Shown piece after piece: positions 23,886 to 48,090 of a stretch of DNA of 50,950 nt. Each line of letters opens with the position of its first letter. The first letter of the stretch is position 1. Origin of the DNA: Protoeuglena noctilucae (taxonomy: Eukaryota > Chlorophyta > Pedinophyceae > Marsupiomonadales > Marsupiomonadaceae); the NCBI GenBank assembly GCA_958009085.1, contig OY253692.1, forward strand, positions 50,001 to 100,950, written 5' to 3'. A program made the position numbers and the translations under genes. A model generated the notes under the pieces. It saw only the letters and a program-made list of their open reading frames with translations. It was not told the origin of the DNA and did no database searches.

Positions 23886-26764
<2,879 letters not shown>

Positions 26765-27247: not shown

Positions 27248-28174
27248 TTAAAAGTTCATTTCTGCTAGTTGCACTTTTTCATATTGTTTTTTCTTTAATA
27301 CAAGCATTACTTGTGTTAATAAACTAAATACAAAGAATGCTAGCATACCTTGGATTCTTGCTGGATTTTGTAAAACGATTTCCGTTTCAATTTGACCAAA
27401 ACCACCAACATTTGGGTTTGTTGTTAAAGGATCATCGGCTTTAATTTCTTGTCCAGTTTTTACAACAAGACTTGGTCCAGCAGGAATTTTTTCAGTAACT
27501 GTATCCCCCAAACTTGTTTTAATAAGAATTTCATATCCACCTTTTTCTAAAGATGTAATTTCACTAATTTGTCCAGTTACAGAAGATGTGTATATTGTAT
27601 TATTACTCTTTGTACCGTCAGGATAGATTTGTCCACGACCTCTGTTACCTCCTAAATAAATAGGATATTTAATATAATGTACATCTTTATTTTTTGCTGG
27701 ATCTGGTGAAAGAATAGGGAATGTTAATTCAGTATATTTTTTAGCTGGAAGTGGACCGATAACTAAAATGTTTTTTCGATTTTCATTATAAGGTTGAAAA
27801 TAAAGTTTACCAACTTTTTTTTTCATTTCTTCTGGAATTCGATCGGGTGGAGCTAATTCAAACCCTTCAGGTAAAATTAATACTGCCCCAACATTTAGTC
27901 CACCTTTTTTACCATTTGCTAAAACTTGTGTAATTTGTTGATCAACTGGAATTTTGACAACAGCTTCAAAAACAGTATCAGGTAATACAGCTTGTGGTAC
28001 TTCAATTTCAACAGGCTTTTGTGCTAAATGACAGTTTGCACATACAATTCGTCCATTAGGTTCACGAGGATTTTCATAATTTTGTTGTGCAAAAATCGGA
28101 TACGCTGATACAGAAGTTGTTTTAATAGACAAAAAAACAATTAATAAAAAAATTTTTTTTAATAATTTTTTCAT
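27248..28174 (-). CDS. petA: Cytochrome f
   Basis: The c-type cytochrome of the b6f complex, passing electrons to plastocyanin or cytochrome c6 in the lumen. The 308 residues have an N-terminal signal peptide (about 1-24, ending VSA) before the mature start YPIFA. Y25 is the axial haem ligand through its N-terminal amine. The haem motif CANCH is at residues 45-49. One C-terminal membrane anchor ([15 protein letters not shown]) is followed by a short stromal tail. It lies upstream of petL-petG on the same strand. A strong hairpin (28247-28277) sits in its 5' leader. Confidence 0.99.
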
Positions 28175-31988: not shown

Positions 31989-32061
31989 TTTTTGTATCCT
32001 TTCTTTTCTTTTAAAAAATATTCTGCAAAAAAGAGTAAAAAAATATTGGCTTTTATTATTT

Positions 32062-32134
32062 TGCATTCAGCAGGAATTGAACCCGCGTAATACCAATTAT
32101 GAGTTGGGTGCCTAAACCACTCGGCCATGAATGC
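32062..32134 (-). tRNA. trnI-CAU: tRNA-Ile(CAU), lysidine type
   Basis: A 73-base cloverleaf. Acceptor GCATTCA pairs with TGAATGC, discriminator A, anticodon loop CTCATAA (CAT). The body strongly resembles known plastid trnI-CAU (ATGGCCGAGTGGTTTAGGC, CCCAACTCATAATTGG) rather than methionine tRNAs. C34 would be converted to lysidine by TilS, encoded at 48430-49560, so that it reads AUA as Ile. Confidence 0.93.
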
Positions 32135-32372
32135 AATTTTTGTAAAAGTCTAAGCCTTTTGCTTTTTTAAAATTATATTTTTGCTTCTATTTTGTAAAGA
32201 TAAAAACTTTAATATTTTAATACAATTGTAACAAAAAAATTAAAAACTAGCTATCATTTTTCTTTTAAACTTTTTTATTAAAAGCTTTAACCAGAAAATG
32301 TAACGATTATAATTACACATTAAATGGATGCTTTTTTATACCTAACATTTATAGGTCTTTAAAAAAGCGAAT

Positions 32373-32634
32373 TGGAACTGGTGGGAATTGAACCCACGTC
32401 CAGAATTCAATAATTTCTTTTTTTTTTTTCACAATTATTTAGCTGTTATAAACCTAACAGCAGGAATTGAAAAAAGCCAACTAACTTGTACTTAATTAAA
32501 TGGAAAAGACTACAACATTAAACAGCAACAGCTGTTTGTCGAGAAAACTTTAAAATATTATTACCATTTTTTTGTTTTTTCTGATTGATTAAAAGAAATT
32601 ATGACACAGATTCTGTCGATACCAAATCAGTCCC
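32373..32634 (-). ncRNA. ssrA: tmRNA (trans-translation RNA)
   Basis: A one-piece tmRNA of about 262 bases. The tRNA-like ends pair: 5' GGGACTG (32634-32628) with 3' CAGTTCC (32380-32374), discriminator A. The 5' part reads GGGACTGATTTGGTATCGAC, the tmRNA 5' signature. The 3' part reads GGACGTGGGTTCAATTCCCA, a T arm ending in CCAGTTCC. The internal frame from a GGT resume codon (32565) encodes GNNILKFSRQTAVAV and stops at TAA (32520-32518). This tag has the hydrophobic Ala-Val end expected of SsrA tags. The CCA is not encoded. Known role: with SmpB, rescue of ribosomes stalled on broken mRNA and tagging of the product for proteolysis. It lies between trnI-CAU and rbcL. The middle pseudoknots were not modelled. 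Confidence 0.9.
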
Positions 32635-32732
32635 ATTTTTCTAAATTGTTTATGAATTCATATTAGCAAAAATCGTTCTATGTAGCGATAAATGCAAAAA
32701 CCTTTTTGTTCATAAAAGAACAGAAAATCATA

Positions 32733-32793
32733 TTTTAGATTGCAAAAAATTCTTGTAATGTTAGCCACTACAAGAATTTTTTGAAATCTAAAA
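32733..32793 (-). terminator. rbcL 3' hairpin
   Basis: A stem of about 25 base pairs with one mismatch joins 32733-32757 to 32769-32793; the core CAAAAAATTCTTGTA pairs with TACAAGAATTTTTTG. It starts 58 bases beyond the rbcL stop and about 100 bases before the ssrA 5' end. Confidence 0.75.
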
Positions 32794-32851
32794 CTTTTTT
32801 TAGAGTAATGTAAAATTCTTATACAAAAAATTTTACTAAAACTTTTAAAAA

Positions 32852-34279
32852 TTATAATTTGTCAACAGTATCAAATTCAAATTTAATTTCTTTCCAAACT
32901 TCACAAGCTGCTGCAAGTTCAGGACTCCATTGACAAGCTGCACGGATTACATCCCCACCTTCACGTGCTAAATCGCGACCTTCGTTACGAGCTTGTGTAC
33001 AAGCTTCTAACGCTACACGGTTAGCTGCTGCACCAGGAGCATTACCCCAAGGGTGACCTAAAGTACCACCACCAAATTGTAAACAAGAATCGTCACCGAA
33101 AATTTCTACTAATGCTGGCATATGCCATACGTGAATACCACCAGAAGCTACTGGCATTACACCTGGAAGAGATGCCCAATCTTGTGTAAAGTAAATACCA
33201 CGGTTACGGTCTTTTTCTACATAAGCATCACGCATTAAGTCTACGAAACCTAAAGTAATTTCACGTTCACCCTCTAGTTTACCTACAACTGTACCAGAGT
33301 GTAAATGGTCACCACCAGATAAACGTAAAGCTTTTGCTAATACACGGAAGTGCATACCATGATTACGTTGACGGTCAATTACTGCGTGCATCGCACGGTG
33401 GATGTGTAAAAGTAAACCATGATCACGACAGTATTTAGCTAGTGAAGTATTTGCTGTAAAACCACCTGTTAAGTAGTCATGCATAATAATAGGTACACCT
33501 AAATCACGAGCACATTCTGCACGTTTTAACATTTCTTCACAAGTACTTGCTGTTGCATTTAAATAGTGACCTTTTACTTCACCAGTTTCTGCTTGAGATT
33601 TGTAAATTGCTTCAGCTACGAATAAGAAACGATCGCGCCAGCGCATAAATGGTTGTGAGTTTACGTTTTCATCATCTTTTGTGAAGTCTAAACCACCACG
33701 TAAACATTCATATACTGCACGACCATAGTTTTTAGCAGATAAACCTAATTTTGGTTTGATCGTACAACCTAAAAGGGCACGACCGTATTTATTAAGTTTA
33801 TCACGTTCTACTTGGATACCGTGTGGAGCACCTTGGAATGTCTTACAGTAAGCAGCAGAAATACGAAGATCTTCTAAACGAAGAGCACGAAGAGCTTTGA
33901 AACCAAATACGTTACCTACGATCGAAGTAAATAAGTTAGTAACGGAACCTTCTTCAAATAAATCTAACGGGTAAGCTACGTATGCAATATATTGATCATC
34001 TTCACCAGGTACTGGTTCGATATCGTAACAACGACCTTTATAACGATCTAAAGATGTTAAACCGTCTGTCCACACTGTAGTCCACGTACCTGTAGAAGAT
34101 TCTGCAGCTACTGCAGCGCCTGCTTCTTCAGGTGGTACACCAGGTTGAGGTGTCATACGGAATGCAGCTAAAATGTCTGTATCAGATGGTTGGTAATCTG
34201 GTGTGTAATATGTAAGACGGTAGTCTTTTACACCAGCTTTAAATCCTGCACTTGATCTCGTTTCTGTTTGAGGAGCCAT
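32852..34279 (-). CDS. rbcL: Rubisco large subunit (form IB)
   Basis: The catalytic subunit fixing CO2 to ribulose-1,5-bisphosphate in the stroma or pyrenoid. It has 475 residues. Active-site residues are at standard positions: E60, N123, K175, K177, K201 (the carbamylated lysine), D203, E204, H294, H327 and K334. The N-terminus [20 protein letters not shown] is the green-lineage form. There is no intron. AGGA lies shortly before the ATG. It is transcribed divergently from atpB, the ancestral green arrangement. Confidence 0.99.
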
Positions 34280-44094: not shown

Positions 44095-47000
44095 ATGAGT
44101 ACTTTAAAAAAAAAAAATCAAAATTTACAAAAAAAGACGCAGATATATCAATTGAAAGATATTCGACAGTCTTTTAAAACTAAAATATATTCAAGTTTTC
44201 AACAGTTTTTTGATTGGAAGTCTGTGGTTGCATTAATTCCAATTATTTTTAGTTTTTATCCTTATTCTTCAAAACAAAGCTTTAAAAATTATATTGGAAC
44301 CAATTTAACTAGTTTTACAGATAATAAAAATATAAAATTCCCTATAGAAATATACAAATATAAAAAATTATTTTTTTATGATTCGTTAGTTCAAAAAAAT
44401 CTAAAAAATGAGATAAATACAGAAAAAAATAAATATCAGTTTGATATGTTGTTAGATGTTTTACTATTTAACAAAACTTTTGTATTTGATAATTCCACAT
44501 TGCCTTTAAAAATAGGCTCCTTTTTAAACAATACAAAAGAAAAAGATCAAACTAATAAAACGATATTCCAACTTCGAACTTTAAAACAGTTAAATTTTTC
44601 ACAAAAAAAAACCAATAGAACAATTTTACAAAAAAAATTAAGTATTGCCAATCTACAAAATTTAGATAGTTTTTCTTTATATTATTTCTTAAAAAAACAA
44701 AATATTAAACTCAAATACACTCTTCAAAGTATTGAAGATAAAGAAAAAAGTTTGATTTTAAATTCAGGAAATTTTTATTGGAATCTCTTTTTTCAAAATA
44801 GTTTTATGAAAAGTTTCGATTCAACCATTGCTTTCCCTTCGGGAGCAAAAAAAAATAAAGACGAAACGTTTCCTTTACTGAAACAATCAATACAAGACTT
44901 TTTTTTTACCTCAAAACCAAAAATCATAGAAAAAACTATTTTAACGAAAACTCCAAAAGTTGAAATAAAATCGTCCAGTAAAAACTTGAACTATGTTTTA
45001 AAGTTAAACGAAGAAAATAATGATATCATTTTTCAAAATCCAAAACTTTTATCAAAAATCATTTATTTAATAATTTCTGAAAATGAATTACAAGATAGTA
45101 GTTTTGATTTTTTTGGTGGAACGATAAAAAAACGAAAAAAATTTATCTCATTGCCTCCTTTTTTAAATGTTAATGAGAATGTTTATATCCAAGATCTAAA
45201 ATATACTTATTCACCAAATACAAAAATTTCTAAAGATTGGGAATTTTTAAAAGCTTCCTCAAAAGAAGAAAATTCAAAAAATTCAACAATTATTCGTGAA
45301 TTGAAAAACCGATTTGGAGATCAATTATTTTATAGTACTAGACAGTATTCAAAACCGACTACAAAAACTATTGTAGAAATTTCAGTCGATAGTAATTCTA
45401 TAAAGGAATTCAATACTAAATTTTTTACTAATTATGATCCAAAATTAACGATAAGTATCGATATTCCATTTTATTGGGATTGTTTTACAAATGACAATAC
45501 GAAAAAAAATATTATTAATTTTTTAGACATAAATAAAAAATTCATTACAAATGAAAAAGAAAAGATTTTTTTTCTAACAAATCAAAATTTACTCCCATTT
45601 TCAAATCAAGAACTCATTAATGATTTTTATCAATATTATCCAAATCTTTTCAAATCCTCAGATACAAGTAACATTATTGTAAAAAATAAAGAATATTTAC
45701 GTGAACTTTTTTTTATTTCTTTTACACAAATTAGCATTTGTTTTTATTTGTTTTACTTATTACGTAAAGTGTACAAATCGTATCAATACGAACTAGGTTT
45801 TTATTTATTGGAGTTTGCATCACGTTTAAATTTATATGATGAAGATATAAAAAGTATCATTAATGAAGTTTATGAAAATGGAAATATTAGAATTTTTAGG
45901 AAATTTAATGTTTCATTTTTAGCTCTCGGAGGTATGATAGAGTTACTTCCTAAATTTAGTGAAACTGTTTGGTTTTTAAAAAATCAATGTCGTCCTTCGA
46001 AAAATGGGGCATTAATTCCAAAAGCAATTTTGCTAGTAGGTCCTCCAGGGACAGGTAAAACTTTATTAGTCAAAACTATTGGCGCGGAAGCAAAAGTACC
46101 TGTTTTAATTCAATCCGGAAATACTATTTTAGAAGACTCGGAGGGGATCAGTAAGCTACAAGAAGCGTTTCAAAAAGCTCGCGAAATGGCTCCTTGTGTT
46201 TTATTTATTGATGAAATGGATACCATTGGATCAAAACGAATCGAACTAGAGTTAACTAATATTCAAGAACAGTCGGTAGTAAAAAACCAACTAAAACTCA
46301 AATTTGAGGATTTAGAAACTACGGTCTTAAAAAATAAAAAAAATGAAAATGTTTTTTCAAACCCGATAAATTCAGGACAACAAGTAAATGCCTTAACTCA
46401 ATTATTAGTAGAATTAGACGGAATTGAAAAAAGGCAAGGATTTGTAGTTTTTGGAGCAACTAATCGACGTGAAACATTGGATCCGGCTTTAATACGTCCC
46501 GGTCGTTTTAATGAGGTCATAGAAATAGGATTACCTGATTTAAAAAAACGAATAGAAATTTTAAAAATTTATACAAAAAAATTAGGATTTGTAGAAAAAA
46601 TCGATTGGAATACTTATGGGAAATTAACTTTAAATTATAGCGCGGCAGATTTAGCTACTATTGTCAATCGTTCCGCAATACAGTCTATATTGAATAATCA
46701 AAAACATTCAAACGTCTCTCTCTATAAAGCTTTAAAGAACCAAAAATCTGATGATTTATCTTTTTCTATTAATAAATTAAATAAAACTTTAAATAAAAAA
46801 AATTCGCTATCTGACCAATTTTTCCACCTTAATCCATGGGTACTTCAAATGACTTATTATGAAATTGGTCATTCTTTATTTAAACAAAAGTTAATTGATT
46901 TTTTAAATTCACAAAATAAAACTAATTTTAACCAATTAACCCCTGAAAACGTTAATCTTTCGTTAGAGAAAAGATTAGATCAACGATCAGAAACTAGTTT

Positions 47001-48090
47001 TGCTAATGTTTTTTTTTATTTTCTAGATGATCTTACAAAAACTACAAATAAAATAGATTTATATCGATCTTTAAAATATTCAAATCAAGAAAATATAATT
47101 AATGAAATAAAAAATAACATCGAAACTTTTAAACCTAATTCAGCTGATTTATTCTTTTCCATTATAATTTTGTTGGCGGGGAAAGCTAGTGAATTTTTAT
47201 TTTTATATTCAATTTCTAAAGAGGATAGTAATCTTTCCCTAAAAAAAGATCCTACTTCTCTTCAAAAGGATTACCCAAATACGTTTGGAAATATACAGGG
47301 AAAATTTGCTTTCGAGTCCCAACCAATTTCTTCTTTAGAAGAAGCTACTGAATCGTCGTCTCAAACTATGGAATCTGAAAATCCACTAACATCTTCTATG
47401 GAAACTGTTGATGAACTATCTGTTCAAAAGACTAAAGAATTTTCTAAAGAAAATCTTGAAAATAGTACTCAAGAAATACCAAAAATTGATCAGGATAAAA
47501 ACGATTTTTGTTTTGATGTAAGAATACAACAGATCTTACAAAACTCGAAGAGAGTTACAACTATCGGTGATTTAGACCTTTATAAAGCGAATCTTCTCGG
47601 CGATATTTATGTAAAAATTTTAAAACTAAATAACATTGATATTTGGGAGGACAATTCTGCTTTTTCTTCGAAAACTCAAACAAAAAATCTTAATCTTAAT
47701 TCTTCTTTTGAAATGAAGAAAGAGCAACTTTTAAACTTTGAAAACAAACAAATATGGAATACAAAAAGTTTATGGCTAAATGTTTTAGGAAATTCTTTTC
47801 AAAACCTTGAAAACAAAAAATGGTCACGTCTACATCTCTCAAATCCAGAAAATACTATTTTTAATGAAGAAATTATATTTTCTGACCTTTTTAAAACATT
47901 ACAACAAAATTCAAAAGTTAAGATTGAAAACCAAATAGAATTAAAAAGTTTACTAAAAAATTCTACTGATGTAAGTTTACAAAATATTTTATATTTAGCT
48001 TTTTCGTATACATTTTTATTTTTGGAAGATTCTCGAAATGAACTTGATTTTGAAGTTTATAATTTTCTAAAAAAAGAAAAATTTCTTTAA
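44095..48090 (+). CDS. ftsH: FtsH-like AAA+ protein with altered zinc site
   Basis: A 1331-residue FtsH-family protein, about twice the bacterial size. The first 560 residues are a poorly conserved Lys, Asn and Phe-rich region with membrane segments near residues 43-56 and 545-562. The AAA+ module is well preserved: Walker A GPPGTGKT (649-656), Walker B LFIDEMD with E707, and GRF in the second region of homology, split by a short insert after the Walker B region. The following M41 peptidase domain is degenerate: HExxH reads YEIGH (922-926), so the first zinc-binding His is lost, and a helix like GGKAAE reads LAGKASEF. Further long inserts fill the C-terminus. It is probably an ATP-driven membrane unfoldase or translocation motor, not a protease. 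tilS follows. Confidence 0.9.
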   Translation: MSTLKKKNQNLQKKTQIYQLKDIRQSFKTKIYSSFQQFFDWKSVVALIPIIFSFYPYSSKQSFKNYIGTNLTSFTDNKNIKFPIEIYKYKKLFFYDSLVQKNLKNEINTEKNKYQFDMLLDVLLFNKTFVFDNSTLPLKIGSFLNNTKEKDQTNKTIFQLRTLKQLNFSQKKTNRTILQKKLSIANLQNLDSFSLYYFLKKQNIKLKYTLQSIEDKEKSLILNSGNFYWNLFFQNSFMKSFDSTIAFPSGAKKNKDETFPLLKQSIQDFFFTSKPKIIEKTILTKTPKVEIKSSSKNLNYVLKLNEENNDIIFQNPKLLSKIIYLIISENELQDSSFDFFGGTIKKRKKFISLPPFLNVNENVYIQDLKYTYSPNTKISKDWEFLKASSKEENSKNSTIIRELKNRFGDQLFYSTRQYSKPTTKTIVEISVDSNSIKEFNTKFFTNYDPKLTISIDIPFYWDCFTNDNTKKNIINFLDINKKFITNEKEKIFFLTNQNLLPFSNQELINDFYQYYPNLFKSSDTSNIIVKNKEYLRELFFISFTQISICFYLFYLLRKVYKSYQYELGFYLLEFASRLNLYDEDIKSIINEVYENGNIRIFRKFNVSFLALGGMIELLPKFSETVWFLKNQCRPSKNGALIPKAILLVGPPGTGKTLLVKTIGAEAKVPVLIQSGNTILEDSEGISKLQEAFQKAREMAPCVLFIDEMDTIGSKRIELELTNIQEQSVVKNQLKLKFEDLETTVLKNKKNENVFSNPINSGQQVNALTQLLVELDGIEKRQGFVVFGATNRRETLDPALIRPGRFNEVIEIGLPDLKKRIEILKIYTKKLGFVEKIDWNTYGKLTLNYSAADLATIVNRSAIQSILNNQKHSNVSLYKALKNQKSDDLSFSINKLNKTLNKKNSLSDQFFHLNPWVLQMTYYEIGHSLFKQKLIDFLNSQNKTNFNQLTPENVNLSLEKRLDQRSETSFANVFFYFLDDLTKTTNKIDLYRSLKYSNQENIINEIKNNIETFKPNSADLFFSIIILLAGKASEFLFLYSISKEDSNLSLKKDPTSLQKDYPNTFGNIQGKFAFESQPISSLEEATESSSQTMESENPLTSSMETVDELSVQKTKEFSKENLENSTQEIPKIDQDKNDFCFDVRIQQILQNSKRVTTIGDLDLYKANLLGDIYVKILKLNNIDIWEDNSAFSSKTQTKNLNLNSSFEMKKEQLLNFENKQIWNTKSLWLNVLGNSFQNLENKKWSRLHLSNPENTIFNEEIIFSDLFKTLQQNSKVKIENQIELKSLLKNSTDVSLQNILYLAFSYTFLFLEDSRNELDFEVYNFLKKEKFL

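Follow-up and report, generated by a model that had tools for sequence, protein, structure and literature searches.

A one-piece tmRNA gene with a glycine resume codon in the plastid genome of Protoeuglena noctilucae, and a nuclear gene for its partner SmpB

The pedinophyte Protoeuglena noctilucae, a green alga living as an endosymbiont within Noctiluca, carries in its plastid genome a real green plastid tmRNA gene (ssrA), and its nuclear contigs carry a gene for the partner protein SmpB. As a family, tmRNAs release stalled ribosomes and mark the incomplete proteins for degradation. NCBI places the alga in the Marsupiomonadaceae, Pedinophyceae. The assembly comprises 26 contigs and 26.3 Mb, of which C25 is the mitochondrial contig (45,034 bp) and C26 the plastid contig; the window analysed here is a 50,950-nt stretch of the latter (C26:50001-100950), and unprefixed coordinates refer to it. 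The first-pass annotation had proposed a plastid tmRNA at 32373..32634, and those coordinates proved exact. The gene and its parts are as follows.

32373..32634, minus strand: plastid tmRNA gene (ssrA), one-piece, 262 nt (RF00023 52.6 bits, gathering score 47; fold z -3.92)
32628..32634, minus strand: 5' strand of the acceptor stem, GGGACTG, pairing with 32374-32380, third pair G-U
32616..32627, minus strand: D-arm-like unpaired 5' region ATTTGGTATCGA (high-posterior alignment to the model's AucuGGaUUCGA)
32591..32615, minus strand: 5' side of the long helix P2 (MFE structure and pair list)
32521..32565, minus strand: tag frame GNNILKFSRQTAVAV, opening with the resume codon GGT (32565-32563; translation, covariance alignment)
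32518..32520, minus strand: TAA stop of the tag frame (translation)
32442..32461, minus strand: hairpin of 7 bp, GCTGTTA/TAACAGC, within the pseudoknot region (MFE structure)
32401..32421, minus strand: 3' side of P2 (MFE structure and pair list)
32381..32397, minus strand: T arm, GTGGG TTCAATT CCCAC (covariance alignment, MFE structure)
32374..32380, minus strand: 3' strand of the acceptor stem, CAGTTCC (MFE pair list), followed by the discriminator base, A, at 32373

The covariance-model search that the first-pass annotation had proposed as a check (Infernal, Rfam 15) returned RF00023 at 32372-32634 on the minus strand, spanning model positions 1-374, with a score that exceeds gathering by 5.6 bits and E values of 6.2e-18 on the whole window and 7.9e-20 on a 651-base stretch around the gene. 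The alignment has a mean posterior of 0.58, with low values chiefly mid-gene; given this and the small margin over the gathering score, the middle of ssrA is less certain than its ends. The predicted folding energy of the 262-nt strand is -62.3 kcal/mol, a value equalled by none of 200 dinucleotide shuffles. A tag-like motif, which was written after the tag had been seen, has a single occurrence in the window's six frames and none in 200 mononucleotide shuffles. A chance origin of the match is excluded. Across the 26.3-Mb genome RF00023 has four matches, and the plastid ssrA alone stands above the cut-off; the other three coincide with tRNA genes called by ARAGORN, two for tRNA-Ala and one for tRNA-His. 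Searches in other collections yielded no further examples: a blastn search of a plasmid collection found no match, a tag-pattern scan of viral contigs for further plastid tmRNAs gave 0 matches, and an rbcL pattern, with which we sought plastid contigs in the same viral set, matched two stretches, neither encoding a relative.

The paired tRNA-like ends and the T arm noted at first pass are both seen in the MFE structure. Reading the minus strand, the 5' end G1 lies at 32634 and the discriminator A73 at 32373, and the 3' CCA tail is absent from the encoded sequence. The acceptor stem GGGACUG/CAGUUCC comprises seven predicted pairs, the T stem five, and neither contains a mismatch; together with the D-arm-like 5' region, which lacks a full D stem, they make up the tRNA-like domain. 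The third acceptor pair is G-U, that is, G3-U70, which is the alanine identity signal of tRNAs. P2 is predicted to have 20 pairs in two segments (6 + 14). A stem search over the 26 nt that precede the resume codon found no stem of at least three pairs with at least one G-C pair, and on this ground the first pseudoknot (PK1) seems to have been lost; in the predicted fold, a weak helix includes the initial G of that codon. Behind the tag there are candidate pseudoknots, and the hairpin at 32442..32461 may belong to a pseudoknot in reduced form. Reductions of this sort have precedents in PMC1168896, according to which pk3 is missing from cyanobacteria and organelles, a partial chloroplast tmRNA of Pavlova lutheri is without helix 4, and the pseudoknot region of chloroplast tmRNAs is uncertain. 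That a PK1-less green plastid tmRNA would still tag proteins, via a glycine resume codon, is a proposition we regard as rather doubtful; if it were true, selection of the resume codon in plastids would depend on the A-rich leader and SmpB and not on PK1.

The tag frame occupies nt 70-114 of ssrA, and its resume codon GGU is aligned over the GCA of the RF00023 model. Translation and alignment thus bear out the 15-residue tag ending in AVAV, opened by a glycine codon, that had been read from the DNA at first pass. Cyanobacterial tmRNA tags (e.g. ANNIVRFSRQTAPVAA) have the core NNI..FSRQTA in common with the Protoeuglena tag, which differs from them in its first residue (Gly for Ala), in a Leu where our scan pattern fixed Val, and in its AVAV end. 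That pattern, applied to GTDB contigs, fixed NNIV, F and R and left S, Q and T free; it gave at least 118 matches, and among the matches listed the 114 that are tag-like all begin with Ala, four others (L035, L051, L076 and L133) having been set aside for over-long or broken frames. With these four included, the first residue is Ala in 115 and Gly in 3 of the 118 matches listed, FSRQTA stands at the corresponding place in 20 of them, and the nearest GTDB tag among them has 9 of 15 residues in common with ours. The recurrence of FSRQTA and the counts of Ala starts indicate that the plastid tag keeps a cyanobacterial core with Gly placed in front. The plastid tmRNA tag of Mesostigma viride, which we take to be ANNILPFNRKTAVAV with an Ala resume codon, shares NNIL.F.R.TAVAV with the Protoeuglena tag and differs in that resume codon. 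Glycine in this position is not new, since 30 sequences with Gly as resume residue are already given in PMC1168896. The letters of the tag had no occurrence in the texts of the papers searched.

A nuclear-encoded SmpB had been predicted from the presence of ssrA, and one is present in the same assembly. A genome search with the Pfam SmpB family located it on contig C2 in two pieces (638298-638501 and 638807-638917), and from these we read a four-exon gene by eye, with GT-AG introns and a predicted start codon.

C2:637923-638198: SmpB, first exon
C2:638304-638492: SmpB, second exon
C2:638612-638694: SmpB, third exon
C2:638812-638929: SmpB, fourth exon

The spliced reading is 221 aa long and matches PF01668 at 174.8 bits over positions 1-142 (142 of 143). 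It also matches 15 distinct SmpB sequences in the PDB (best E 3.6e-41), and in a protein search 7605 of 8000 scored candidates matched it at E <= 0.001. When aligned with five of the sequences so matched, 38 columns are invariant across the six, including D199, K200 and R201 of the tail; this C-terminal tail, DKRETIKRREQER, is basic and aligns with those of other SmpBs. The 73-residue N-terminal extension contains 10 Arg and 16 Ala and neither Asp nor Glu, and by composition only it appears transit-like, as would be expected of a plastid-targeted partner, but the 67.4% G+C of the locus by itself favours Arg and Ala. A tmRNA gene in the organelle with an SmpB gene in the nucleus is the general pattern described in PMC4131195, which lists nine algal plastid-targeted SmpBs. 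As no other tmRNA in the assembly scores above the cut-off, the plastid ssrA is the only visible partner for the SmpB on C2.

We are highly confident that the plastid has retained a standard one-piece tmRNA that would work with imported nuclear SmpB, a GGT-resumed tag and AVAV-directed proteolysis. Established here are the ssrA gene, its predicted structure, the tag frame, the rbcL neighbourhood, the nuclear SmpB gene and the plastid ClpP gene; for expression, charging, import, tagging and choice of protease we infer from the known family what would be expected. The transcript would be trimmed to 262 nt, CCA would be added post-transcriptionally, and alanyl-tRNA synthetase would charge the molecule via G3-U70. 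Imported SmpB, substituting for the missing anticodon part of the tmRNA, would deliver it to plastid ribosomes that have stalled on stop-less mRNAs and whose A site is empty. Translation would then move to the GGT resume codon and append Ala-GNNILKFSRQTAVAV before the TAA, giving a tagged product that ends ...NNILKFSRQTAVAV after the added Ala. The small hydrophobic AVAV end would direct this product to one of the proteases of the plastid; the best candidate is Clp, which has its ClpP1 subunit encoded in the plastid genome. From gene content alone, trans-translation presumably operates in the Protoeuglena plastid.

A clpP gene is present at C26:26952-27485 in the plastid genome, and nuclear contigs carry additional ClpP exons. 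The zinc-finger family of ClpX has 0 matches in the genome, and the ClpX model has 11, the best of 119.3 bits on C3 and none above the cut-off of 370.75, in a scoring that proceeds exon by exon and can hardly reach a cut-off set for whole proteins. The weaker ClpX-model matches elsewhere include a plastid ftsH-like frame of 1331 aa (44095-48090, plus strand), whose best AAA match lies at residues 645-742. Considered as a tag protease, this frame was dropped: it has AAA matches but no peptidase family at E 0.001.

Could the locus instead be a decaying remnant, with tmRNA-like ends that are no longer produced or used? Its low RF00023 score, its short length (262 nt) and the apparent loss of PK1 all lean in that direction. 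On the other hand, the acceptor and T stems are without mismatch, the open tag frame retains NNI, F and SRQTA, and the nuclear SmpB is present with both core and tail. In pedinophytes the two genes are reported to occur together, as would be expected (PMC12574857). We consider decay very improbable. Still less probable, in our estimation, is that the RNA serves as a tRNA-like ribosome-release molecule, charged with its tag frame left untranslated, by analogy with the Mallomonadaceae, whose plastid tmRNAs are apparently CDS-less (PMC11915505, in part). Sequence cannot reveal how a frame is used, and the resume codon begins inside the predicted weak helix; against such a role, the frame sits at the position of the model's own and encodes a peptide that matches cyanobacterial tags. 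We hold it refuted that the likeness arose by chance or that an ordinary tRNA was miscalled as tmRNA: tRNAs are the commonest false positives in tmRNA searches (PMC11915505) and account for the model's other three genome matches, but ARAGORN calls no tRNA at ssrA, the match (E 6e-18) covers the whole RF00023 model, and both tag and SmpB agree with a tmRNA.

The retained tmRNA favoured here is one that ARAGORN, also put forward as a check at first pass, missed in its genomic context, and altered options gave a wrong tag. Run on the window it called 15 tRNAs and no tmRNA, and on 32200-32850 it called nothing, neither tmRNA nor tRNA. Among five option sets applied to this 651-base stretch, four produced no call; the one with a lowered threshold reported a permuted tmRNA over ssrA, with a wrong tag, plus a tRNA-Lys elsewhere. 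Given the isolated 262 nt, three of five option sets reported a tmRNA at 1-262, again with a wrong tag, which we take for an artefact of the piece being read as a circle; the ARAGORN tag VKKKKEIIEFW... was rejected as artefactual. A reduced plastid tmRNA of this kind can thus escape ARAGORN alone while Infernal detects it.

The gene itself is an already recorded one of a known kind. One ssrA is entered for plastome OY253692.1 in Table 1 of PMC12574857, and we take it to be the gene analysed here: plastome and gene number are the same, and the tag and coordinates are absent from the text of that paper as available. The suggestion that ssrA is easily missed in annotation does not hold for this gene, which that table shows was not overlooked. 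According to the same source, Pedinomonadales and Marsupiomonadaceae possess ssrA together with a nuclear SmpB; for two members, Marsupiomonas sp. NIES-1824 and Marsupiomonadaceae sp. Cadiz, a shortage of data left SmpB unconfirmed, and Protoeuglena is not one of the two. Resultomonadaceae plastomes are without ssrA, and in two of that family, Oistococcus and Akinorimonas, no SmpB was found in nuclear data (PMC12574857, in part). Gene and partner were therefore known, through the table entry and the reported co-occurrence. We contribute the tag, a gene model for SmpB with its exon layout, and the observation that ARAGORN fails to find the gene. The genes for trans-translation persist, with ssrA in the plastid and its partner SmpB in the pedinophyte nucleus, and a direct test of trans-translation needs the tag as well as the exon layout of SmpB.

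Next to ssrA lies rbcL, as in relatives; the neighbouring features are as follows.

32852..34279, minus strand: rbcL, directly upstream of ssrA (Pfam PF00016, PF02788)
32729..32797, minus strand: strong inverted repeat between the rbcL stop and ssrA (sub-cut-off microRNA hairpin models, both strands)
32061..32135, minus strand: tRNA-Met (CAT), next gene downstream of ssrA (ARAGORN, RF00005)

As of 2015, ssrA was known from six chlorophytes (three pedinophyceans, Nephroselmis olivacea, N. astigmatica and Picocystis salinarum), and all six genes adjoin rbcL on the same strand and have 5' and 3' ends and a tag region conserved among themselves (PMC4524492, in part). With rbcL just upstream on the minus strand, the arrangement in Protoeuglena is the same. 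The inverted repeat lies about 55 nt beyond the rbcL stop codon and is probably the stem-loop of the rbcL 3' UTR; the microRNA-family matches there lie far under their cut-offs, all reflect this one hairpin and were rejected.

At the level of whole organelle genomes, the published lengths (plastome 100,950 bp, mitogenome 45,034 bp; PMC12574857) agree with C26 and C25. The published repeat sizes (IR 11,467, SSC 6,059), taken with the mirrored match of C26:28674-32500, place the inverted-repeat ends at 27691/56683 and 39157/45217 on C26. In a comparison that covered the ends and this mirrored match, part of one copy reading N, the two copies agree up to those ends and diverge beyond, bar one shared base at the outer end. 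Three minor observations were also made. Rfam RF04354, 'Plastid-ycf2 5UTR', scores 82.2 bits at 32061-32134 on the plus strand, antisense to tRNA-Met (CAT), which scores 59.8 bits as a tRNA; the family itself may be an antisense reading of a trnM gene. A 51-nt nuclear stretch (C18:373681-373731) matches the plastid tRNA-Ile region at 86% and may represent a short segment of plastid DNA moved to the nucleus, or a different tRNA. Finally, Rfam IsrR, the antisense RNA of isiA, scores 191.9 bits at 24671-24857 on the plus strand, opposite the psbC reading frame (23886-25271, minus strand; PSII family); the match probably stems from isiA/psbC homology, yet with so high a score an antisense RNA to psbC might be encoded there.
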